Below are positions 32,667 to 43,981 of a stretch of DNA of 64,000 nucleotides, in pieces. Within the stretch, counting starts at the first letter, position 1, and every line of letters starts with the position of its first letter. Origin of the DNA: an uncultured bacterium (GTDB lineage: Bacteria > Planctomycetota > UBA1135 > GCA-002686595); NCBI GenBank assembly GCA_905480285.1, contig CAJQPT010000136.1, forward strand, positions 1 to 64,000, read 5' to 3'. The translations under genes were made by a program, and so were the position numbers. Under the pieces are notes generated by a model. That model saw nothing but the letters and a program-made list of their open reading frames with translations. It had not been told where the DNA came from and did not search any database.

Positions 32667-33047
32667 TCAATACACCCAGGCAAGGAGCACACGGCCCGTG
32701 ACCGCTCGCCGATCCACCCAACCCTCCTGGGCCGAGTCGAATCCCTCGCACGCAGCGCAGTCGGAGCTGCACCAGATCCGCGCGCCGTCATCGCGACTCG
32801 CGGAGACGACAACGAGGTGTAGGTTCCCATCGGCGCCTCGAACCAGCACCGAATCCCCCGGCGCCACCTGCGCTGGTCGCAGATCCACCACCAGCCGATC
32901 TCCAGCCTCGAATCGCGCCACCGGGCAGCAGCGATCGGTCGGCACCGTGAGCACCTCAAATCGGTAGCCAAGGTAGCCCACCCCAGCCAACGCGAGGACC
33001 ATCGTCCAGCGGCGGAAGCGCCTCAGCCATCGACGCTGCGGGCTCAC
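32667..33047 (-). CDS. Small membrane protein, signal-peptidase-like fold without catalytic residues
   Basis: A 126-residue protein between thiE (4-nt overlap) and thiL (9-nt gap). It has one N-terminal membrane segment (WTMVLALAGVGYLGYRF). The following phrases, VPTDRCCPVARFEAGD, APGDSVLVRG and GWVDRRAVTGRVLLAWV, line up in order with boxes of type I signal peptidases (the substrate loop, the GDxVxV strand and the closing GxV strand). The nucleophile Ser and the Lys base are absent. CCP and CSSDCAAC are four or more Cys that might bind metal or form disulfides. The relation to S26 peptidases is inference from pattern. Confidence 0.5.
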   Translation of the reverse strand: MSPQRRWLRRFRRWTMVLALAGVGYLGYRFEVLTVPTDRCCPVARFEAGDRLVVDLRPAQVAPGDSVLVRGADGNLHLVVVSASRDDGARIWCSSDCAACEGFDSAQEGWVDRRAVTGRVLLAWVY

Positions 33048-33796
33048 CGCTTCGCCTCATCGCTGGGCATGAACGTCGCCGCTGCAGCGGCCACCAGGTC
33101 ATCCACCCTCTGGGGCAGGCCAGGGCTAGCCGCCCTCTCCTCCTCGGCGCGCACAGCGTCCGGCCCTGCCGCGTTGACCCCGGCCAGCTGACCCCAGACC
33201 GAGCCGATGGCAGCCGCGCCCGCGGCGCCTGTCCCGCGAAGGCGCGGGAGGGACGCCGGGTTCACGCCGCCGAGCGCCCACACCGGCAGCGGGCAGGCCG
33301 CGCAGAACTCCCGGAGCCCTTCCGGTCCGAGGATCCCAACCTCCACGTCCTTGGAGTGCGGCGCGAAGACCGGGGCGTGCATGGCGTAGTCCGCGCCCTC
33401 CCATCGATCTGGCCCGTCCCCCTGATGGGTGGAGACTCCAAGGGTCACCTTGTCGCCGAGAACGCGGCGAGCCTCCGCCGCTGAGAGTGAGCCCCCCGCG
33501 AGGTGCACACCGTCTGCCGCCGTGGCGCCCGCGAGGTGAACGCGGTCGTGGATCCCCAGCCAGGCCCCCGGGGCCTCACGGTCCAGCAGCGCCCGCGCCT
33601 CAAGCGCCAACTCAAGGAACGGGCCGTCCTCAAGGAAAGGCTCGCGGAGCACCAAGCCGGACCCGCCGGCGCGGACGACCTCTCGGAGCCTGACCGGGAA
33701 CGACGCGAGCTCATCCCCAGCGGCGCTCCCTGGCGCGCCCCGGGTGAGGGTGCCAGGCGAGAGGACCAGCATGCTCGGGGGCAACCTCCGATGCAT
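33044..33796 (-). CDS. thiE: Thiamine-phosphate synthase family protein
   Basis: ThiE joins the hydroxymethylpyrimidine and thiazole halves to give thiamine monophosphate; TenI relatives act on the thiazole. The 250-residue product shows the TIM-barrel landmarks GIHDRVHLAGATAADGVHL, GVSTHQGDG, DYAMHAPVFAPHSK, PVWALGGVNPASL and GAAAIGSVWG. Several canonical ThiE residues (for example GxSxH, seen here as GVSTH, and GPVFxTxTK, seen here as HAPVFAPHSK) are partly changed, so TenI-like activity is possible. The extra C-terminal 40 residues are helical. The ATG at 33796 shares one base with the stop of the upstream gene (TGATG). Confidence 0.82.
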   Translation of the reverse strand: MHRRLPPSMLVLSPGTLTRGAPGSAAGDELASFPVRLREVVRAGGSGLVLREPFLEDGPFLELALEARALLDREAPGAWLGIHDRVHLAGATAADGVHLAGGSLSAAEARRVLGDKVTLGVSTHQGDGPDRWEGADYAMHAPVFAPHSKDVEVGILGPEGLREFCAACPLPVWALGGVNPASLPRLRGTGAAGAAAIGSVWGQLAGVNAAGPDAVRAEEERAASPGLPQRVDDLVAAAAATFMPSDEAKR

Positions 33797-35907
33797 CACT
33801 CCTCCAGCTCGATCAGGTACCCGAGGTCCCGGAACAGCGTCCGGTAACGGGCCAAGCTGGTCTTGCTCTTCAGCTGCACCGCGTTGCCATCGAGCTTGCC
33901 CTTGATGAACGGGCGCACCCCGGCGTCTCGCGCGAAGCGGCCCAGGATCCCCGAGTCTTGCGCCCTGATCACATGGTCCGCGCCGAGGAGCAGCAGCCCG
34001 GACTTCGACGCCCAATCACGGATCGACTGGAGGACGTTTCGGGGCACCGGGGTACGCGCGTTGAAGGTCAGGATCTCCTTCATCTTGGTGAGCGTCATGC
34101 CCTCCACGAGCCCTCGATGGACGCTCTTCTCGTTGATCCTGAACTGCTTCAGCGCGCCGTCCTTCGTGCGCTCGGTGAACCGGTCCAGGTCGTGGGTCAA
34201 GACCGCGTCGTCCCCGTCAGAGAACAGGACGATCTCGAAGTCAGGCGTCACCACGAGGCGGCCGATCCCGAAGGTCTCCTCCTCGGGGGTGTCCACGCCG
34301 AGCACCCGCGCCCCGCTGCGGGTGAGCCGCATCGCCACCGGGTGCCCCTTGTCGTCGTAGCCGAGGTCAACGAGCCCCAGGAGGTACAGGCGCTTGCGAA
34401 CCCACCCAACGAGGTTCCAGGCGAGCCGCTGGAGATCCTCCGTGGCCCCGGCGCCTGCAGCGCCCCTGGCGGCGATCATCTCATCCACCTCGAGCACAGC
34501 GAGCTGAGAGAGGTACGCGTTGCGAGCCAGGAACGGGAGGTACATCACGTCGTACCAGACCCCCACCTCCAGGCGCTTCATCAGCGTCGAGAGGATGCGG
34601 CGCATGGCCGGGTGGTGGATCGACTCATGAGCCTCATCGAGCTCGAACGTGATGTACTCGAAGAGCCCGGCCAGCTTGGTGTCGAGGTCCTGGGACTCCC
34701 AGTCCCGGCCGGCGGCCGTGAGCTTGAAGGTCCGCTCGCCCGTCACCTCAATCAGCCCCACAGAGCGCGAGAACCTGAAGATGAACTGCAGCACCTCGCC
34801 GCGCTCCAGCTCTCGCCCCGGGTTCGGGATGAGCTCGGTGAGGATCCGCTTCTCGGTCGTCTTGAAGATCTCTCCCTTGACCGTGAAGCGCACCGCGTGA
34901 TCGATGATGTAGGCGAGGAAGCGCGAGATGTTCGCCATCAGGTCCACGCCGAGCGCCGCCTCGTCGTGGGGCGCGTCCGGGTCGGAGGGCACGGCCACGC
35001 GCTTGAACCATGCCAGCGTGACCTCGTTGAACACGATCAACGTGTCATCCTCGTGCTGGATCCCATAGCGCTCCAGCTCCAACCTTGCGGTGGTGCCGAC
35101 CAAGGACTCCTCCAGAATCTTCGCCCAGCGGCGCTGGTTCCAGTGGGGCAGGTCCGTCTCCATGCGCTCGAAGAAGCGCCTGGGGAGCATGCCGCCAAAC
35201 TCGAGGACTGTCTTCCCGACGAGGTCCCGGAGCCCCTCCGGCAGACGCTCCACCCGGGCGACCGAGGCCGGCTCCTTGGCGTACATCTTGAACATCTCAC
35301 GGAGCCGCGAGGGCGACATGGGACGCTCCACCTCGGGCCCCGCATACCGCTCGTCAAGGTGCCCCTTGAGCGTGATGGTGACCGCGTTGGCCCTGGCCTT
35401 CTCCGCGATCTCCTGGAGCAGGAGCGCGTCTGCAAGCTCTCCGGGGAGGGCGAAGTACTCCCCTTCTGGGTTCCCCTCGCGGAAGACCATCGCGGCGCGC
35501 TCGAGATCGCCGAGGACCTCCGCCTCCGAGGCCCCGCCGAGGATGGAGAGCACGGTCTTGCGCTCCATCCGGTGCCGTGGCGCCAAGAGCAAGGCCTCCA
35601 CCACGGCCTGGTGGGTCTCTCCCATGGCCAGCTTGCGCTCGACGGCGCGCTCGGGCTCGCACATCCAGCCCTCGAGGGTGGTCCGCAGCTCCCCGACTCT
35701 TGCCGGCGATTCGCTGAACTCGCCGCCGGACCAGAACTCGAAGGGCTCCCGCAACTGGGCCTTCTTCAGCCGCTTGAGCGCCGCGCTGACGGAGAGATCT
35801 CCGCGCACGGAGCGGCGGGGGACCGTCCCACTGGAGGTCCTGTTCTGGCTGCGCACAGAACGCTTGGTCACACCAGAGGAGTCGGGTTCAGGGGATCGCG
35901 CCGTCAC
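33796..35907 (-). CDS. XPB-companion protein with helicase-associated N-terminal-type domain
   Basis: A 703-residue protein overlapping the XPB gene by 4 nt. About residues 560-700 match the domain found at the N-terminus of XPB helicases and in their bacterial neighbours: GIGRLVVTPDFEIVLFSDGD, FRINEKSVHRGLVEGMTL, ILTFNARTPVPRNVLQSIRDWA. The rest is helical with winged-helix-like stretches (ALLLAPRHRMERKTVLSIL, FSRSVGLIEVTGERTFKLTAAG). No helicase motor motifs are present. A paired gene of this type next to XPB is known from actinobacteria. I infer a regulatory or DNA-binding partner of the helicase, perhaps recalling TFIIH subunits. Confidence 0.75.
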   Translation of the reverse strand: MTARSPEPDSSGVTKRSVRSQNRTSSGTVPRRSVRGDLSVSAALKRLKKAQLREPFEFWSGGEFSESPARVGELRTTLEGWMCEPERAVERKLAMGETHQAVVEALLLAPRHRMERKTVLSILGGASEAEVLGDLERAAMVFREGNPEGEYFALPGELADALLLQEIAEKARANAVTITLKGHLDERYAGPEVERPMSPSRLREMFKMYAKEPASVARVERLPEGLRDLVGKTVLEFGGMLPRRFFERMETDLPHWNQRRWAKILEESLVGTTARLELERYGIQHEDDTLIVFNEVTLAWFKRVAVPSDPDAPHDEAALGVDLMANISRFLAYIIDHAVRFTVKGEIFKTTEKRILTELIPNPGRELERGEVLQFIFRFSRSVGLIEVTGERTFKLTAAGRDWESQDLDTKLAGLFEYITFELDEAHESIHHPAMRRILSTLMKRLEVGVWYDVMYLPFLARNAYLSQLAVLEVDEMIAARGAAGAGATEDLQRLAWNLVGWVRKRLYLLGLVDLGYDDKGHPVAMRLTRSGARVLGVDTPEEETFGIGRLVVTPDFEIVLFSDGDDAVLTHDLDRFTERTKDGALKQFRINEKSVHRGLVEGMTLTKMKEILTFNARTPVPRNVLQSIRDWASKSGLLLLGADHVIRAQDSGILGRFARDAGVRPFIKGKLDGNAVQLKSKTSLARYRTLFRDLGYLIELEE

Positions 35908-37778
35908 TCTACGTCGCCCTCGGGAAGGCTGGCTGGAGTCTGGGTGCCGGACTCCGCGGCGCCAGGAGCCGCATCGTCCGGATCCACGCCCTCAGCGTGG
36001 ATGATTTCGTACGAGTACCCCTGCTCCGTCAGGAACAGCTGCCGCTTCTCGGAGAAGTCCTGATCCCGGGAGCCCAGGGTCACCACCGAGTAGAAGGTGG
36101 CGCCGCTCCCGTCCGATTTGGGTCGGAGGACTCGACCGAGGCGCTGAGCCTCTTCCTGCCGGGATCCAAAGGTCCCGGAGACCTGGATCGCCACCGAGGC
36201 GTCCGGGAGATCCACGGCGAAGTTGCCCACCTTCGAAAGCACGAGGAGCTGAAGCTCCCCGTCGCGGAAGGCGGTGTACAGGCGCTCGCGCTCGGCGTTG
36301 GGCGTGCGGCCGGTCAAGAGCGGCGCGTCGAGCTCCTGCGCGAGGGCACGGAGCTGGTCCAGGTACTGACCGATCACGAGCACCCGCTCGCCATCGTGCT
36401 GCTCGACCAGCGACCGGACCACCGGAAGCTTGGCAGGGTTCTCCGAGGCCCTGCGGAACTGTTGCCGGGGGGGCGCCGCCGCGTACGAGCGGCGGTCCGC
36501 GTCGGAGAACGCCACCCGAACCTCGACGCAACGGGCCTCGGCGATGAACCCCTGCCCCTCGAGCACCTTCCAGGGCACGTCGTAACGCTTGGGTCCGATG
36601 AGGCAGAAGACCTCCTCCTCCTTGTTGTCCTCTCGGACCAGGGTCGCGGTCAGGCCCAATCGACGGCGGGCTTGGAGCTCGGCAGTGACGCGGAAGATCG
36701 GCGCAGGCAGCAGGTGGACCTCGTCGTAGACAACGAGCCCCCAGTTCTCTGACCGGAAGACCTCGAAGTGCTCGAACTCACCGGACTTCGATCTCCGCCA
36801 GGTCATCATCTGATACGTACTGATGGTGACCGGGCGTAGGTCCTTGGTCTCGCCGGTGTACTCCCCGACGTCTTCCGGCCGCAGTTCGGTCTTGTCCAGC
36901 AGCTCCTCCTTCCACTGACGAACGGCCACCGTGTTGGTGGTTAGGATCAGCGTCTTCGCTCCCACGAGGCTCATGACGGCCATTCCCGTGACCGTCTTTC
37001 CGGCGCCGCAGGGAAGGACCACCACCCCGCTCCCGCCCATCACCGTGCCCCCAGCGTGGAACGCCTCGGCGGCCCCGCGCTGATAATCACGGAGGCCAAA
37101 GGGCTTGCCCGAGAGCGTCACCTCCTTGAACTGAATCTCGAGGGGGTCCCCCTCCAGATAGCCCCCACGATCATCGACCGGGTAGCCGATGCGAATGAGC
37201 TTCTGCTTGAGGTCCCCGCGCTCGATACCCGACACGAACGCGCGCGGACCCTCGGGGCTCTCGACCACATTGCAAAGCGCTCGGAGGGCCTTGTGCGCCA
37301 GCACCTCTTCCAGGAGCCCCGCCTCGCCCCCGAGGAGCTCGAACTCGCCAGGGCCGTCTGTCGCACGCTCGATCCGCAGCAGGCCGTAGCGCCCGATCCA
37401 GCCGCGGATCTCGTCCACCACGCTCCCCGGCACGGGGACGCAGGCGTACCGAAACAGCACCTCCTCGATCTCCGCGGCGCTGATCCCCACGGCCGCAGCG
37501 TTCCACACCGAAACGGGCGTCACGCGGTAGGTGTGGAGGTAGTCCGGGCTCTTCTCGAGTTCCGCGAACACGCTCAGCTCGTCTCGGGCAGCCGTGAAGA
37601 GCGGGTGCTCCTCGGTGACAGGGTTCCCGTCAGCGTCCCGCTCGGGGCGACCGTCGGCGTCGACCCGCGCCCGCACCGTGTGCAGCATCAGCGTCCGGTC
37701 GCCCTGGACGATGAGCGGATTGGTGGGCAGCGGCGCCTGGAGCGGCGCCCCGCCGTCTGCGAATCGAGCCTCCGTCAC
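35904..37778 (-). CDS. XPB/Ssl2-type DNA helicase (SF2)
   Basis: A 624-residue 3'-5' DNA helicase of the XPB family, whose eukaryotic member opens DNA in nucleotide excision repair and transcription. The N-terminal damage-recognition-type domain is present (residues 20-130; NPLIVQGDRTLMLHT, YLHTYRVTPVSVWNAAAVG). The motor shows Walker A LPCGAGKTVTGMA (about 255), DEVH in VVYDEVHLLPAP (about 347), GLTATLVRED containing the XPB-specific RED motif (about 378), and motif VI QRLGRVLRP (about 548). It overlaps the tandem uvrA gene upstream and its companion gene downstream by 4 nt each, so all three are translationally coupled. A repair role with UvrA is inference. Confidence 0.93.
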   Translation of the reverse strand: MTEARFADGGAPLQAPLPTNPLIVQGDRTLMLHTVRARVDADGRPERDADGNPVTEEHPLFTAARDELSVFAELEKSPDYLHTYRVTPVSVWNAAAVGISAAEIEEVLFRYACVPVPGSVVDEIRGWIGRYGLLRIERATDGPGEFELLGGEAGLLEEVLAHKALRALCNVVESPEGPRAFVSGIERGDLKQKLIRIGYPVDDRGGYLEGDPLEIQFKEVTLSGKPFGLRDYQRGAAEAFHAGGTVMGGSGVVVLPCGAGKTVTGMAVMSLVGAKTLILTTNTVAVRQWKEELLDKTELRPEDVGEYTGETKDLRPVTISTYQMMTWRRSKSGEFEHFEVFRSENWGLVVYDEVHLLPAPIFRVTAELQARRRLGLTATLVREDNKEEEVFCLIGPKRYDVPWKVLEGQGFIAEARCVEVRVAFSDADRRSYAAAPPRQQFRRASENPAKLPVVRSLVEQHDGERVLVIGQYLDQLRALAQELDAPLLTGRTPNAERERLYTAFRDGELQLLVLSKVGNFAVDLPDASVAIQVSGTFGSRQEEAQRLGRVLRPKSDGSGATFYSVVTLGSRDQDFSEKRQLFLTEQGYSYEIIHAEGVDPDDAAPGAAESGTQTPASLPEGDVE

Positions 37779-40700
37779 CGGGCCTGCCCCCTCTTCTTCT
37801 TCGGCGGCGTCCCCGCCGTCTGCTGCCCCGACACCTGCTGCCCCGCGGGCGCGGTCTTCACGCTGGCCTTGACCTTCGTCTTGCGAGATGGAGATCGCTT
37901 CTTGCCGGATGCGCCCTTGGCCACGCGGCGTTTTCCGGAGCCAGCCCCCGCGGCCCGCACCAGCCAGCGACCCGTCACCGAGGCCTTGTCTCCCGCGAGC
38001 TCCGCGGGGGTCCCTGAGGCAATGATCTGCCCGCCGGCCTCACCGCCCTCCGGGCCCAGTTCCACCAGTCGGTCGCAGATCTCCAGGAGCTCGGTGTGAT
38101 GCTCGATGACGACCACGGCGTTGCCCCTTCGAACGAGCCGTCCAAGACAGCGCGCGAGGTGTTCGACATCCGTGGCGGCCAAGCCCGTGCTCGGCTCGTC
38201 GAGCACCAGCACGCTGCGCTGCGCGACCCCGGAGGGAGAGTCCGCCCGCCACAGCTCCGAGGCGAGCTTGATGCGCTGGGCCTCGCCCCCGGAGAGGGTG
38301 GTCGAGGATTGGCCGAGCGACATGTACCCCAGGCCGACGTCATGCAGCGTGGCGAGGATCCGCCGCGGCGCGGGGGCGGCCCCGAAGAATTCGAGGGCCT
38401 CGTCCACGCTCATGGCGAGCACATCCGCGATGGACTTGCCGCGGTAGCGCACCTCGAGGACCTCGGGCTGATAGCGAGACCCATCGCACTCTTCACAGGT
38501 GAGCCAGAGGTCCGAGAGGAACTGCATCTCCACCAGGGTGGACCCGCGCCCGTCGCATCCAGCGCAGCGCCCCTTGGTGGAATTGAACGAGAAGTTCGAG
38601 GGCGTGAAGCCCTTCATCCGAGACTCGGGCGTCTTGGCGAACAGCTCCCGCAGATGCGGCATCAGCTCGACGTAGGTCGCCGGAACGCTGTGGGGCGTTC
38701 GCCCGATGGGCGTGGCGTCGACCACCGCGAGCCGCGTCCCTTCGGGCACCTTCGCGCTCTTCCACCGACCCGCAGCCGACTCCCCGCGTATCGCCGGGAC
38801 GAGGGCATCCAGGACGAGGGTGCTCTTACCGCTCCCCGAAGGCCCACAGACCCCGAGCAGTTCCCCGAAGCGAACCTCCAGGTCCACCCCTCTCAGATTG
38901 TGCTCGCGGGCCCCCTTCAGCTGAACCGTGGCGTCGCCTGACCCGAAGGCGTCCACGAGCGCCTGCTGGCGCGCCGCCTCCAGCTCAGCGTCCTCGCCCG
39001 CAGCGTCCACGGCGAGAATCGCCGCGAGATCGACCTCGCCCCGCAGGTACCGTCCGGTCCCAGAGGTCGGGTGAGCCCGGATCTCCTCCGGCCCACCTGC
39101 GGCCACCACCTCGCCGCCGAGGACTCCCGCCCCCGGTCCCATGTCAACAATGTGGTCGGCCCGCCCCATCAGCTCGGCGTCGTGCTCCACCACCAGCACC
39201 GTGTTCCCCGCGTCGCGCAGGTCCTCCAACGCGCCGGCCAGCTGGTCGATATCCCGCGGGTGGAGGCCCACCGTCGGCTCATCGAGGACGTAGCACACCC
39301 CCACGAGCTCCGACCCGAGGCTCGCTGAGAGCCGGACGCGCCGCGCCTCTCCACCGGAGAGCGTCGAGGTTGAACGATCCAGGGACAGGTAACCCAGTCC
39401 GACGCGCTCCAGGAGCGCGAGCCGGGAGCGCAGCTCGCTGAGGACCTGGTCCATGGCGGACGCCACGTTCTTGCGGAGCTTCAGCGCGCCCAGCCAGAGA
39501 AGGGCCTCCTCGACGGTCATGCCGAGCACCTGCGGGATTCGCTTTCGGCCCACGAGCACGCTCCGGAAGGCTGGCGCCAGCCGCTCCCCGTGGCAGACCG
39601 GACAGGTCTGCCGGGTCATCACGCGCTCCAGAATCCCGGCCCACTCGGGGTCGTCCGTCTTGGCGTGCCAGGCGTCGATGTGTCCGCAGAGACCGCTCCA
39701 CTCCGACGTGTACTCCTGGTCGAAGTCGAAGTTGCGCATCTGCTTGGAGACGTGCACCTCGTAGCTCCCCCGCGCCCCAGCGCCACGCAGCAGGAGCGCT
39801 TGGTGCTTGGCGCTGAGCTTCTCCAGGGGCTTGTCGAGGTTCACCCGATGCGACCGGGCGACGGTCCGAAGCAAGGTCTCGTAGTAGCCCTTGCCCTTGA
39901 CCAGGTACCGGCCCAGCTTGCCACCTATGGCCCCGTCGGTGAGAGGGCGCGTGGGGTCCGTGATGAGCTTCTCGGGGTCCGCCCGGAAGATCGACCCCAG
40001 ACCGTCGCAGCTCTGGCAGGCCCCGACGTGAGTGTTGAACGAGAAGTGACGTGGCTCGAGCTTGGCCCCGAGCTGGAAGCCGCAGGTGGTGCAGGCGCCG
40101 TGGGTGCTGTATTCGATCCGCGCTCCGCCCTTGACCAGCACGGACACACGGCCGTGGGACGCCGCTGCCGCCTGCTCCACGGCGTCCGCGATTCGAGCCC
40201 GTGCCGCGGTCGAGAAGCTCACGCGATCGACCACGAGGTCCACCGCCTCGGCGTCATCAAAGGGGAGCGCCTCAGCGTCCAGGCGGTACTCCTCACCGTC
40301 GATCATCACCCTGACAAACCCGGCCGCCGTCCAGTTGGGCAGCAGGGCTCGCAGGCGCTCGGGCACGGACTCTGCGCTGTTGCCCAGCTTCACGGCGTGG
40401 CCGAGGACCGGCGCGAGGATCCATCCCTTGGGCTTCCCGTCCAGTTCGCCCGTGGTCTTGAGGATCTCACGCGTGACCTTGCCAGGGTCCGCAGGACGCA
40501 GGGGCTCGCCGTGCTCGGGGCACCGGGCTTCGCCAGCCCGGGCATAGAGCACCCGCAGTTGATCGTGGATCTCCGTCGTCGTGGCCACCGTGGACCGCGG
40601 ATGCCCCCGCACCGTGGAGGCCTCCACCGCGACAGAGGGGCCGAGGCCCTCGATACGCTCCACCGGCGGCTTGTCCTTGGTCCCCAGGAACTGTCGCGCG

Positions 40701-43700
40701 TAGGTGGAGAGGGACTCCACGAAGCGGCGCCGCCCCTCGGTGTAGATCGTGTCCAGCGCGAGGGAGGACTTCCCTGAGCCGGAAGGCCCTGTGATCACCG
40801 TGAGTGACCCGCGCGGAATAGCGACGTCCACGCCCTTCAGGTTGTGGGTCCTGGCGCCCTGGACGAGCAGCTCCGTCGGCTGGCGCACCCCGCGCGAGCG
40901 CGGCAGCGGGCGGGTCTTCAGGCGCCGACGGTCCGTGAGCTCACGCAGCGCCTCGCCCGTGGGCGTGTCCTGCACAGCGAGCTCCTCCGGGCTCCCGCAT
41001 CCGAGCACCCGGCCGCCACCCTCGCCGCCCTCCGGGCCGAGATCCACCAGGTGATCCGCGGCCTGGATCAGCTCCAGGTTGTGCTCGATCACGAGCACCG
41101 TGTGCCCCTTGTCCACCAGGCGCTGCAAGGCGCCGACCAGCCGCCCGACGTCCTCCATGTGAAGCCCGGTCGTGGGCTCATCCAGGAGGAAGAGCGTGTG
41201 CCCGTTCGGCCGCCGCGACAGGTGTGTCACGAGCTTGATGCGCTGCGCCTCCCCACCCGAGAGCGTCGGCGAGGGCTGGCCGAGGGTCAGGTAGCCGAGC
41301 CCCACATCCATCATCAGGCCGAGGGGCCGGCGCAGCAGAGGGTGGTCCTCGAACAGCTCGTGTGCCTCCTCCACCGTCATGGCGAGCACGTCGGCGATCG
41401 ACCGCTCGCGGTAGCGAACGTCGAGGGTCTCCTCCTGGAAGCGCCGCCCGCCGCACTCCTCACAGGGCACGGTGACCGGGCTCAGGAACTGCAGCTCCAT
41501 CACCTTCACGCCCGCCCCGAGGCACTCCTCGCAGCGGCCGCCGGCCACGTTGAAGCTGAAGCGTGACTTGGTGTACCCCCGCATCTTCGCCTCCGCGAGG
41601 CTCGCGAAGAGCTCGCGGATCGGCCCCAGAATCTTGGTGTAGGTGGCCGGGTTCGATCGCGGCGTTCGCCCGATCGGCGACGCGGTGATCGAGATCATCT
41701 CATCGATGTGCTCGAGGCCGAACACGGCGTCATGGGGCCCGGGATCCGGCGTCTCCCGCTCGAGGTGCCGGAGCACGGCACGCTTGAGGGTACGCTCCAC
41801 CAGCGTCGACTTGCCCGACCCCGAGACGCCGGTCACGGCGGTCAATGTGCCCAGGGGAATGCGAGCGTCGACCCCCTTGAGGTTGAACGCGGAGGCGCCG
41901 CGGATCTCGAGGAACTCGCCGCTGCCGGAGCGCCGCTCCTCGGGCGCAGGGATCACAATCTCCCCGCGCAGCAGCCGGCCTGTCGGCGTGTCAACGCCGG
42001 ACCTCGCGACCTCGGAGGGCGGTCCTGAGGCGACGATCTCCCCGCCGCGGCTGCCCGCCGAAGGTCCCACGTCGATGAGCCAATCTGCGCTCCTGAGGGT
42101 GGACTCGTCGTGCTCGACGATCACGACGCTGTTCCCAGCGTCACGCAGGTTCGCGAGCGCCCCCAGCAGCCGGTCATGGTCCCTCGCGTGGAGGCCAATC
42201 GAGGGCTCATCCAGCACGTAGAGCACCCCCTGGAGCCCCGCGCCAAGCTGCGCGGCGAGGCGGATTCGTTGCGCCTCCCCTCCGGAGAGCGTGTCCGCAC
42301 CCCGGTCGAGCGTCAGGTACCCAAGCCCCACATCCACGAGGAACCGCACCCGCCGCTCGATCTCGAGCAGTAGGTCACGGGCGATGCGCCCCTGGCGCTG
42401 AGTCGTCTCCGCCGAGCTCAGGCGCTCCACGAGCTCTGAGACCGGTCCTGACGTCAGATCCGCGAAGCGCAGCCCGCCGAAGCGGACGTGCCGGGCGAAG
42501 AGGTTGATCCGTGAGCCGTCGCACTCCGTGCAGACCTGCTCGGACAGGAAGCGCTCCACCATCTTTCGGCGCGAGCCCTTCGCCAGGGCGCGCCGGAGGT
42601 TCCCCAGGACGCCGTGGAACACTCGGTTCCAGCTGCCCTTGCCACGCGAACGCTGACCGTTCCACTTGAACGCGTCCCGATAGCGCTTCTCCCCCGTGCC
42701 CTCGAGCACCGCCCTTCGCGCTCCTCGAGACATCTCGGCCCAGGGCGTGTCCAGGTCGAAGCCCGCCGACTCACCCACCCGCTCCAGGAACTCGAAGTCC
42801 ACGTTTGGGAAGAGCAGCCCGTTCCCTGCGGCCTTGGTGACCGCGAGGGCTCCCTCTCGCAGGGTGAGTGCCGGGTCGCGGATCACCGCCGCCTCGGACG
42901 GCGCCTTTAGCACGCCGAGCCCACCGCACGCGCCGCATGCCCCGTGCGGTGAGTTGAAGGAGAACAGTCGGGGCTCAAGCTCAGGGAGCTCACGACCGGT
43001 CTCCGGGCAGACCCGCTGGGTGGACCAGGTGCGCTCTCCCTCCTCACCGATCGCAACCACCTCGCCGCCACCCAGGTCCAGCGCTTGCTCAACGGCGTCC
43101 CGCAGGCGACCGGGCTCGCCTGCGTCGGGCTTGAGCCGGTCCACAATGACCTCGACCGTGTGACGCTTGTAGCGCTCGAGCTCCGGCGCGTCCTCCAGTC
43201 GAACGATCTCTCCGTCCACCCGCGCGCGCACGAAGCCGCGGCGCTGGAGGTCCTGGAAGAGCGCGCGGAACGAACCTTTGCGGTCCTTGATCAGGGGCGC
43301 CGCCACGACGAGCTTGCGCCCTGCGTGGGCGGCGAGCAGCTCCTGGACCACAGCCTCTGGTGTCCGGGACTCCACCGGCAGATCGCACCAGGGGCTGTGC
43401 GCGACTCCGGCCCGTGCGTAGAGGACTCGGAGGTGATCCACGACCTCCGTCAGCGTCCCGACGGTGGAGCGATTGCCACGGGCGATGCTCTTCTGATCCA
43501 CGGCGATGGCCGGGGAGAGCCCCTCGATCGAGTCCACGTCCGGCTTCTGCAAGCCGCCGAGGAACTGGCGGGCATAGGCGGAGAGCGTCTCGAGGAAGCG
43601 CCGCTGCCCCTCGCGGAAGAGCGTGTCGAAGGCGAGGGAGGACTTGCCGGAACCGGACACGCCGGTCACGGCGACGAGGGCCCCCCGAGGCAGCGTCACG

Positions 43701-43795
43701 TCCACCGAGCGCAGGTTGTTCTGCCTCGCGCCCCGGATCACGATCTCGCCCGCGTCGGACCCGGAAGTCGTGGGAGCTGCGGGTCGAGAAGGCAT
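37775..43795 (-). CDS. uvrA: Tandem-duplicated excinuclease ABC subunit A
   Basis: UvrA is the damage-sensing ATPase of nucleotide excision repair. This 2006-residue protein is two full UvrA copies in one chain. Copy 1 (1 to about 970) has Walker A at about 45 and 657 and LSGGEAQRI signatures at about 501 and 843. Copy 2 (about 970-1955) has Walker A at about 1003 and 1653 and signatures LSGGEARRV at about 1478 and LSGGEAQRI at about 1830. The C-terminal zinc finger is intact in both copies (CEECLGAG...CEECGG and CAGCDGRG...CEECDG). The first zinc finger is intact in copy 2 (CTTC...CQSC) but reads CPET...CGAC in copy 1. A Lys/Arg-rich tail of 50 residues follows. Start at ATG 43795 gives the usual [12 protein letters not shown] opening. 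Confidence 0.95.
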
Positions 43796-43981
43796 CGGGT
43801 CGTGGGCGTGCTGGGTGGAAGCGCGAGGCAGCGCGCAGGTCGTAAGGGCGCGCCCCGCCGACTTGTCGACGAGGGAGGGGCCCCGGAGACTTGCCTCGGG
43901 CGTACTGAAGCCGATCAGGATACCAGCCGGCGTCGTGGGCACCAGCCGCCCGAGGCCGGCGAAATGCCGCAGCAGCCCCCT

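Follow-up and report, generated by a model that had tools for sequence, protein, structure and literature searches.

A conserved uvrA-XPB-companion gene unit in planctomycetes and a predicted p52-like partner of bacterial XPB

The DNA analysed here, called the window, is a stretch of 64,000 nucleotides from contig CAJQPT010000136.1 of an uncultured planctomycete, and its minus strand carries a tandem of three genes, which encode the damage sensor UvrA, the helicase XPB and a companion protein of XPB. The three-gene arrangement is real and conserved, and the companion is very probably p52-like in nature, p52 being the subunit of the eukaryotic factor TFIIH that binds XPB. On balance, a reading in which XPB and its p52-like regulator form a translocase that acts with UvrA in excision repair is slightly favoured.

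The uvrA-XPB-companion unit of the window

The first gene of the unit is uvrA (37775..43795, minus strand), a double-length gene with two UvrA halves in one chain, as identified by TIGR00630 matches and motifs; its open reading frame (ORF) spans 37775-43942, the ATG at 43795 being the likelier start. It is followed by XPB (35904..37778, minus strand), encoding a 624-residue helicase of the ERCC3/Rad25 family, and by the companion gene (33796..35907, minus strand), encoding a 703-residue protein classed as p52/Tfb2-like from profiles, its predicted structure and a Paenibacillus relative.

The tandem order and the 4-nt overlaps given in the preliminary description were confirmed. The overlap of the uvrA stop with the XPB start (37775..37778) reads GTGA on the minus strand from 37778 to 37775, and that of the XPB stop with the companion start (35904..35907) reads GTGA from 35907 to 35904. 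Overlaps of this length were found in 6 of the 23 same-strand ORF pairs of the window (a mechanical ORF set), including both triad junctions and the junction of the companion with the following thiE-like gene; because they are so frequent, they prove little by themselves, and the 4-nt overlap alone was rejected as evidence of special coupling. The above-chance feature of the triad is its conserved gene order.

Between 31500 and 45000, no promoter was recognised by a scan covering sigma-70-type sites. Two terminator-like sites were found in the same region, below the 3.7 expected by chance, and none of them lies at the uvrA-XPB-companion junctions. Neither kind of signal was thus seen between uvrA and XPB, where its presence would have spoken against a common unit.

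Conservation of the gene order

An initial search matched XPB-type sequences in 61 genomes and gave loci for 30 of them, all from the family of the window; in all 30, uvrA precedes XPB and the companion follows it. Further XPB loci were fetched from other families of the order, from more members of the window's family and, in 40 cases, from across the phylum, the last being chosen by hand and spread over families from the XPB-bearing genomes (120 of 246). The resulting set comprised 74 loci, 34 from the window's order (11 of these from its family) and 40 from outside it. Seven loci with less than 3 kb upstream of XPB were left undecided, leaving 67 decidable ones, and two loci with uvrA about 3 kb upstream (L080, L140) were counted as unlinked.

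uvrA was found directly upstream of XPB in 38 of the 67 decidable loci and not in the other 29. Inside the window's order, 27 loci were linked, 3 were not and 4 were undecided; outside the order, the respective figures were 11, 26 and 3. A linked case was present in 15 of the 35 families having a decided locus, so that the order, which the preliminary description had proposed to look for in related planctomycetes, extends well past close relatives. With start codons chosen mechanically, a 4-nt overlap was present at 27 of the 38 linked uvrA-XPB junctions. On a tree of XPB with 73 of the 74 loci, in which 31 of 70 inner branches were drawn open, the linkage label changed 7 times versus 22 in shuffles, a pattern matching few gains and losses. 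The arrangement had been thought undescribed, and no paper describing it was found in a search that excludes preprints and most subscription papers.

The companion resembles p52

In Pfam, the window companion matched one domain, Helicase_C_3, at residues 551-665, and no other at E (expectation value) up to 0.001. The clutch-like part of this region, residues 551-637 (33997..34257, minus strand), was delimited by the Pfam match and structure alignment. Helicase_C_3 was present in 56 of 56 companions (the window protein plus 55 of 96 listed proteins; a later set used 50 of those 56). A profile was built from 23 companions, namely the window protein plus 22 of the 23 available from named records; among PDB sequences it retrieved human XPB (1.4e-6), yeast TFB2 (0.0012) and human p52 (0.019). 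The Pfam family Tfb2 matched 8 of the 56 companions at E up to 0.1, with a best value of 5.7e-4; in the companion of L112 the match spans residues 377-560, starting well upstream of Helicase_C_3, which begins at 494. A six-frame Tfb2 scan of the 61 genomes listed 15 matches, of which, by coordinates, 10 fall in the companion gene, 2 in XPB and 3 elsewhere. By sequence, the likeness to p52 is weak and resides in the clutch together with the segment preceding it.

Predicted structures support a p52-like architecture. AlphaFold models were obtained for the window companion (predicted local distance difference test score, pLDDT, 65; predicted template modelling score, pTM, 0.44) and, with better values, for its relative from Paenibacillus thermotolerans in locus L055 (pLDDT 82, pTM 0.72). 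In Foldseek searches of the PDB with either model, ranks 1-17 were p52/Tfb2 chains, ahead of XPB. The window model matched 8ebs_D at E 7.4e-9 and the crystal structure 6trs_A at 1.9e-7; the Paenibacillus model matched 7zs9_2 (1.2e-10), 8ebu_D (1.3e-10) and 6trs_B (1.4e-9), with XPB at 2.1e-6 and the first non-TFIIH protein at rank 39 (2.0e-3). The identity as p52/Tfb2 is named in the search output or PDB data for 8ebt_D, 7o4i_2, 7zs9 and 6trs, and the remaining top-17 chains we take to be p52/Tfb2 by chain letter and length.

In VIA-align, residues 1-456 of the Paenibacillus model aligned to residues 35-461 of p52 chain 9pd3_D (Z 13.3, 370 residues, root-mean-square deviation (rmsd) 18.7). Both models contain winged-helix-like parts, and the N-terminal half of the companion aligned with the p52 fragment 6tru at Z 8.0-8.9 over 220-228 residues, near the common winged-helix level. 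The companion clutch superposed on the XPB N-terminal domain with Z 15.6 and rmsd 1.2 over 92 residues; the clutch of p52 is described as sharing the fold of that domain (PMC6422496), which is also the fold found in the companions. The preliminary description, which had given the companion an XPB N-terminal-type domain, was right in that Helicase_C_3 is present and incomplete in that the predicted protein resembles TFIIH p52.

Several results count against this identification. The Pfam cut-off of Tfb2 (PF03849) was reached in 0 of the 61 genomes and by none of the matches with a listed score, the best of which had 18.4 bits versus 34.5 required; the six-frame matches, all sub-threshold at E up to 1, occurred in 13 of the 61 genomes, the window genome not being among them, and 6 of 14 control genomes also matched Tfb2 at E up to 1. 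The rigid-body match to p52 is loose, with template modelling (TM) scores of 0.12-0.35 and rmsd 14-30 A over long alignments, p52 being described as a flexible modular protein (PMC7708078). The clutch is the only part that superposes tightly, its fold is also that of XPB itself, and XPB has the top VIA Z with both models. The window model has a pLDDT of just 65, and its structure alignments to p52 stop at residue 639, leaving the C-terminal module uncovered. Because the Pfam cut-off was not reached, the superposition is loose and the N-terminal half has no p52 sequence match, the companion is termed p52-like rather than a Tfb2 member.

The same data bear on the idea that the companion is a winged-helix DNA-binding regulator with a borrowed XPB-type domain, its likeness to p52 being convergent. 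A companion profile without the clutch found no p52, and its matches were winged-helix regulators of MarR/ArsR type and other weak or small domains, at E 0.019 and worse; moreover, the last domain of the Paenibacillus relative is WYL-like (Z 9.6 to BrxR). However, p52 came ahead of those folds by several orders of magnitude with both models, and the fragment 6tru, which covers just the N-terminal half of p52, aligns over the 220-228 residues mentioned above, although at Z values close to the winged-helix background. We consider a convergent regulator improbable.

The WYL-like domain of the Paenibacillus companion (L055:11689-13455) occupies residues 521-589 at its end. The companions of second XPB copies in L128 and L150 also end in a WYL-like manner, the match in L128 being weak. 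Such domains are of a type seen in regulators, some of them bound to single-stranded DNA.

XPB and the companion form a pair

The window XPB scored 792.6 bits against NF045503 (cut-off 610) and has Walker A, DExH, RED and QxxGRxxR motifs, with the helicase and RED motifs at residues 258, 352, 382 and 545; it is a member of the XPB (ERCC3/Rad25) family. Its N-terminal domain (Helicase_C_3, residues 49-168; 37275..37634, minus strand) is the predicted partner of the companion clutch.

A companion was found downstream of XPB and on the same strand in 72 of the 74 planctomycete loci (34 of 34 in the order and 38 of 40 outside it), as judged by profile matches of 66 to 886 bits, the weakest of which need care. 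The two loci without it were L122, whose only other match (20 bits, upstream) was not counted, and L140; in L127 the companion starts 1 kb after XPB. Conversely, XPB was present in 89 of 91 companion-bearing genomes, both exceptions being fragments at contig edges, and in 31 of the 120 XPB genomes a companion was not matched at E up to 1e-45, partly through diverged companions. In one genome of family f6, G049, uvrA is followed directly by thiE with little sequence between them (L151, G049:C97), XPB and companion missing together, and no full-length XPB was found there by the initial XPB search. Judged from these gene distributions, XPB and the companion form a pair.

In the most reduced pair, L096 (G055), XPB is shorter by about 100 residues ahead of the motor, the companion has lost its C-terminus, and the clutch core is kept in both proteins (Helicase_C_3 1-81 and 1-83), by which a loss of the predicted interface in this pair was ruled out. 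Companions ending at the clutch were also found in three of the four f6 loci compared (L087, L090, L095). As each bacterial protein has one clutch-type domain, with its core kept even in L096, the contact between them may be like that of human TFIIH, in which XPB is recruited by p52 through two homologous domains in a pseudo-symmetric arrangement, one being the clutch of p52 and the other the N-terminal domain of XPB (PMC6422496).

Outside planctomycetes, the companion follows XPB in fourteen Paenibacillus loci and three others (L037, L044, L047); no recognised companion lies beside XPB in several Spirochaetes, nor in the Hydrogenedentes, Zixibacteria and Chthonomonadaceae loci. The large genes after XPB in L036 (Hydrogenedentes) and L038 (Chthonomonadaceae) resemble AddB and RecD2, from their first residues by eye. 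Some planctomycetes (G063, G123, G166) have two XPB copies, and in G063 one is uvrA-linked and the other is not.

UvrA copies linked to XPB

Both halves of the window UvrA scored above the TIGR00630 cut-off (40976-43744, 1158.8 bits; 37994-40870, 951.6 bits), and the protein has four Walker A and four LSGGE motifs as well as two PF17760 and two PF17755 stretches; with this score, its ATP-binding cassette (ABC) motifs and both domain types it belongs to UvrA (excinuclease subunit A). In the first half, the UvrB-interaction domain (PF17760) lies at residues 194-296 (43055..43363, minus strand) and the insertion or DNA-binding domain (PF17755) at residues 351-461 (42560..42892, minus strand), each being the best of two stretches. 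Double-length UvrA by itself is an already known kind, represented by NCBIfam NF001885 (PRK00635; 1809 positions), which we take to model the chlamydial UvrA. The window protein shares with it the two UvrA halves per chain and differs in its score (1237.5 bits, under the cut-off of 3054) and its XPB linkage, and in family f5 the second half also lacks Walker A.

The insertion domain kept in the window UvrA is gone from XPB-linked UvrAs of some other families. In f2, f5, f8 and f24 (10 of the 38 linked loci) it was undetectable in either half, and in f4 one linked UvrA lacks one of the two; the linked UvrA of L125 is truncated by a contig end. The linked UvrAs without insertion domains still have UvrB-interaction domains, weakly in f5. 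A second UvrA elsewhere in the genome was found in f2, f4, f8 and f24, and also in f11, whose linked copy retains its insertion domains. A free second UvrA was considered as a condition for the loss, and no such rule held: G063 has one while its linked copy keeps both domains, and f5 has none.

On a tree of UvrA with 57 rows, from which some close relatives, L125 and low-scoring fragments were left out, 17 free UvrAs grouped without any linked copy (Shimodaira-Hasegawa-like approximate likelihood ratio test, SH-aLRT, 91). These include the free UvrAs of f2, f4, f8, f11 and f24, whose genomes also own a linked copy. Four unlinked UvrAs (one of f6, two of f7 and one of f33) fell among the linked ones, as expected if uvrA was relocated or XPB was lost. 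Placement is unsure for f5 and f8, on long inner branches, and for f2 and f24, on longish end branches.

The most altered proteins are those of f5, with 203-233 bits versus the TIGR00630 cut-off of 729.8 in seven genomes. In all seven searched genomes the altered protein was the sole UvrA detected at E up to 1e-50; as these genomes are 87-90% complete, a missed second uvrA is possible in one and unlikely in all seven. The altered UvrA adjoins XPB in six genomes and lies on a separate contig in G060. The six linked proteins have no LSGGE motif, no Walker A in the second half and no insertion domain, and therefore fall outside UvrA as defined above. The four f5 genomes tested all retain uvrB and uvrC.

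In the f5 loci L078, L079, L081, L083, L085 and L088, the XPB-adjacent UvrA is asymmetric and of double length, its second half keeping CxxC motifs and lacking Walker A; in two of these proteins the signature motif is LSLGE. The window's own genome contains a second, diverged long UvrA at L154 (G000:C97:1-4352) and L155 (G000:C320), with insertion domains and no detectable UvrB-interaction domain, and similar genes occur in G007, G016 and G046. In L158 (G087:C34), two UvrA-type genes are adjacent, with no XPB in the examined stretch, and the second has no insertion domain.

Excision-repair genes and the role of the unit

The preliminary description had allowed for XPB replacing or supplementing UvrB and UvrD, and had proposed a check for uvrB, uvrC, uvrD and mfd elsewhere. 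Above their family cut-offs, uvrB was found in 40 of 41 genomes, uvrC in 35 and mfd in 39. The window genome has all three, together with two pcrA/uvrD-like genes that score under that family's cut-off. The idea that XPB stands in for UvrB or UvrD draws on adjacency to uvrA only, and the gene counts contradict it for UvrB, as do the UvrB-interaction domains kept in linked UvrAs, weakly in f5; with the two pcrA-like genes as well, such a replacement is highly improbable.

In the proposed mechanism, the three genes would encode one nucleotide-excision-repair unit. The companion would be a bacterial relative of p52. As in human TFIIH, its clutch-like domain at the C-terminal side would pair with the N-terminal domain of XPB, to which it is homologous, and would in this way hold and tune the double-stranded DNA translocase of XPB. 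With proteins from C. thermophilum, p52 alone is reported to suffice to enable the XPB ATPase (PMC7708078). The XPB/p52-like motor would cooperate with the covalent UvrA dimer encoded on the same message, and would most likely open or scan DNA at a candidate lesion and help to position UvrA, which would then load UvrB in the usual manner, followed by UvrC. We infer the contact between XPB and companion, the contact with UvrA and the hand-over of damage; the parts drawn from sequence are the gene order and its conservation, the motifs of XPB and UvrA, the presence of uvrB, uvrC and mfd and the loss of insertion domains in several linked copies. A functional link of the XPB-companion pair to UvrA is rather probable, whereas the mechanism of damage hand-over is tentative and somewhat doubtful.

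The loss of insertion domains can be set beside work on E. coli UvrA, in which deletion of residues 290-400 is reported to give poor damage discrimination and to impair global repair more than Mfd-directed repair (PMC3025350). A linked UvrA without the insertion domain is as expected if a translocase delivers UvrA to the lesion, a step that we infer, and the linked UvrAs without insertion domains offer a natural test of a translocase replacing UvrA damage sensing.

A number of observations weigh against joint action of the pair with UvrA. XPB stands without adjacent uvrA in the 29 unlinked loci of the 67 decidable ones, and no uvrA was present in the examined stretch at 28 XPB loci outside planctomycetes, from Paenibacillus, Spirochaetes, others and one archaeon (L036-L063 without L058, plus the archaeal L064; for L036 the stretch extends just 0.2 kb upstream). 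From G049, XPB seems to be dispensable. Among the 25 unlinked UvrAs in the fetched loci, which are no census and are uncorrected for shared descent (fragments L148, L155 and one of L167 were dropped), two show no insertion domain (G087, G158) and one lacks it in one half (G076). Its loss as a mark exclusive to linked UvrAs was thereby ruled out; it is commoner among linked copies and not confined to them. Activity on short duplexes is reported for a Bacillus stearothermophilus UvrA without the insertion domain (cited in PMC3025350), so that the loss need not imply a translocase stepping in. Finally, unrelated neighbours are also conserved beside the triad, namely imp (inositol-monophosphatase), thiE and thiL, which accompany it across much of the order and, in part, elsewhere in some families.

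This last point leads to a reading by which an old syntenic block, imp-uvrA-XPB-companion-thiE-thiL, is conserved without joint function, XPB and companion acting elsewhere. In keeping with it, imp occurs together with thiL near the triad in L116, L126, L131 and L147, imp lies directly before XPB with no uvrA between in L113, L123, L124 and L149, and 4-nt overlaps are common in the window. However, the triad is present in L137, L142 and L146, where neither side showed any of the window's flanking genes, and, less surely, in L120 and L136, whose contigs break off early; the grouping apart of the free UvrAs and the insertion domains lost from several linked ones also argue against it. Synteny alone may explain part of the uvrA-XPB linkage; as an account of the whole we regard it as unlikely, if to be taken seriously.

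Alternatively, XPB and its p52-like partner could serve mainly in transcription, opening promoters or removing stalled RNA polymerase, the link to UvrA being a second route of transcription-coupled repair beside Mfd. Eukaryotic XPB-p52 acts both in the initiation of transcription and in repair (PMC6422496), parts of the companion are winged-helix-like, and the domain lost from some linked UvrAs is the one less needed in Mfd-directed repair (PMC3025350). Against this, mfd is present in 39 of the 41 genomes and no sequence feature of the unit points to RNA polymerase, and a main role in transcription is quite unlikely. A reading of the triad as a defence system was rejected, as no PADLOC anti-phage system was common to all three proteins: the companion had no match, XPB matched PbeA with 79.3 bits, and UvrA matched mad3 in six stretches with 477.1 bits and other entries less.

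Relation to known systems

Among the closest known systems to a translocase acting with UvrA under a p52-like regulator is XPB-p52(-p8) of eukaryotic TFIIH. There, XPB likewise has a partner whose winged-helix-like N-terminal parts precede a clutch that is homologous to the N-terminal domain of XPB (PMC6422496); the Paenibacillus companion model also aligns to the C-terminal region of p52. Unlike TFIIH, the bacterial pair consists of two genes in a unit with UvrA, its contact is a predicted one, and some companions end at the clutch. The XPB of Mycobacterium tuberculosis, a 3'-5' helicase in vitro, has a similarly short N-terminal domain, and the gene beside XPB in actinobacteria is presumably the same companion. 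A 2012 paper on the M. tuberculosis protein stated that no p44/p52 homologues were found in bacteria and that bacterial XPB probably has no TFIIH-like complex (PMC3353954), and a 2026 review still terms the function of bacterial XPB elusive (PMC13024598).

Archaeal XPB-Bax1 resembles the bacterial pair in having a dedicated partner of XPB for excision repair, but Bax1 is an XPG-like nuclease (PMC7672443), whereas the companion matches only Helicase_C_3 in Pfam. In Mfd-directed UvrA loading, a DNA translocase likewise reduces the need for the damage recognition of UvrA itself (PMC3025350); Mfd is, however, a distinct helicase, for which these genomes have a separate gene.

If the companion is p52-like, bacterial XPB owns a TFIIH-type regulator. 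The link to UvrA would bring bacterial and eukaryotic routes of repair together in a single unit and has a bearing on the origin of TFIIH; a p52-like partner encoded beside UvrA and XPB in many planctomycetes hints at a bacterial forerunner or cousin of TFIIH. A further-reaching proposal, which we hold to be doubtful, is that XPB and its partner correspond in bacteria to the XPB-p52 core of TFIIH and, in planctomycetes, are dedicated to UvrA; they would assume the search for lesions or the opening of DNA so completely that UvrA can shed its damage-recognition domains, the altered UvrA of f5 being the only one in the cell. Were this true, the repair motor of TFIIH would have a relative already at work in UvrABC repair.

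Genes flanking the unit

Upstream of the unit, a peroxiredoxin gene ends 330 nt before uvrA. Downstream, the companion is followed by the thiE-like gene (Pfam TMP-TENI; 33044..33799, minus strand), which starts at GTG 33799 or ATG 33796 and whose start overlaps the companion stop. This gene is probably on the same transcript as the triad, yet outside the proposed complex.

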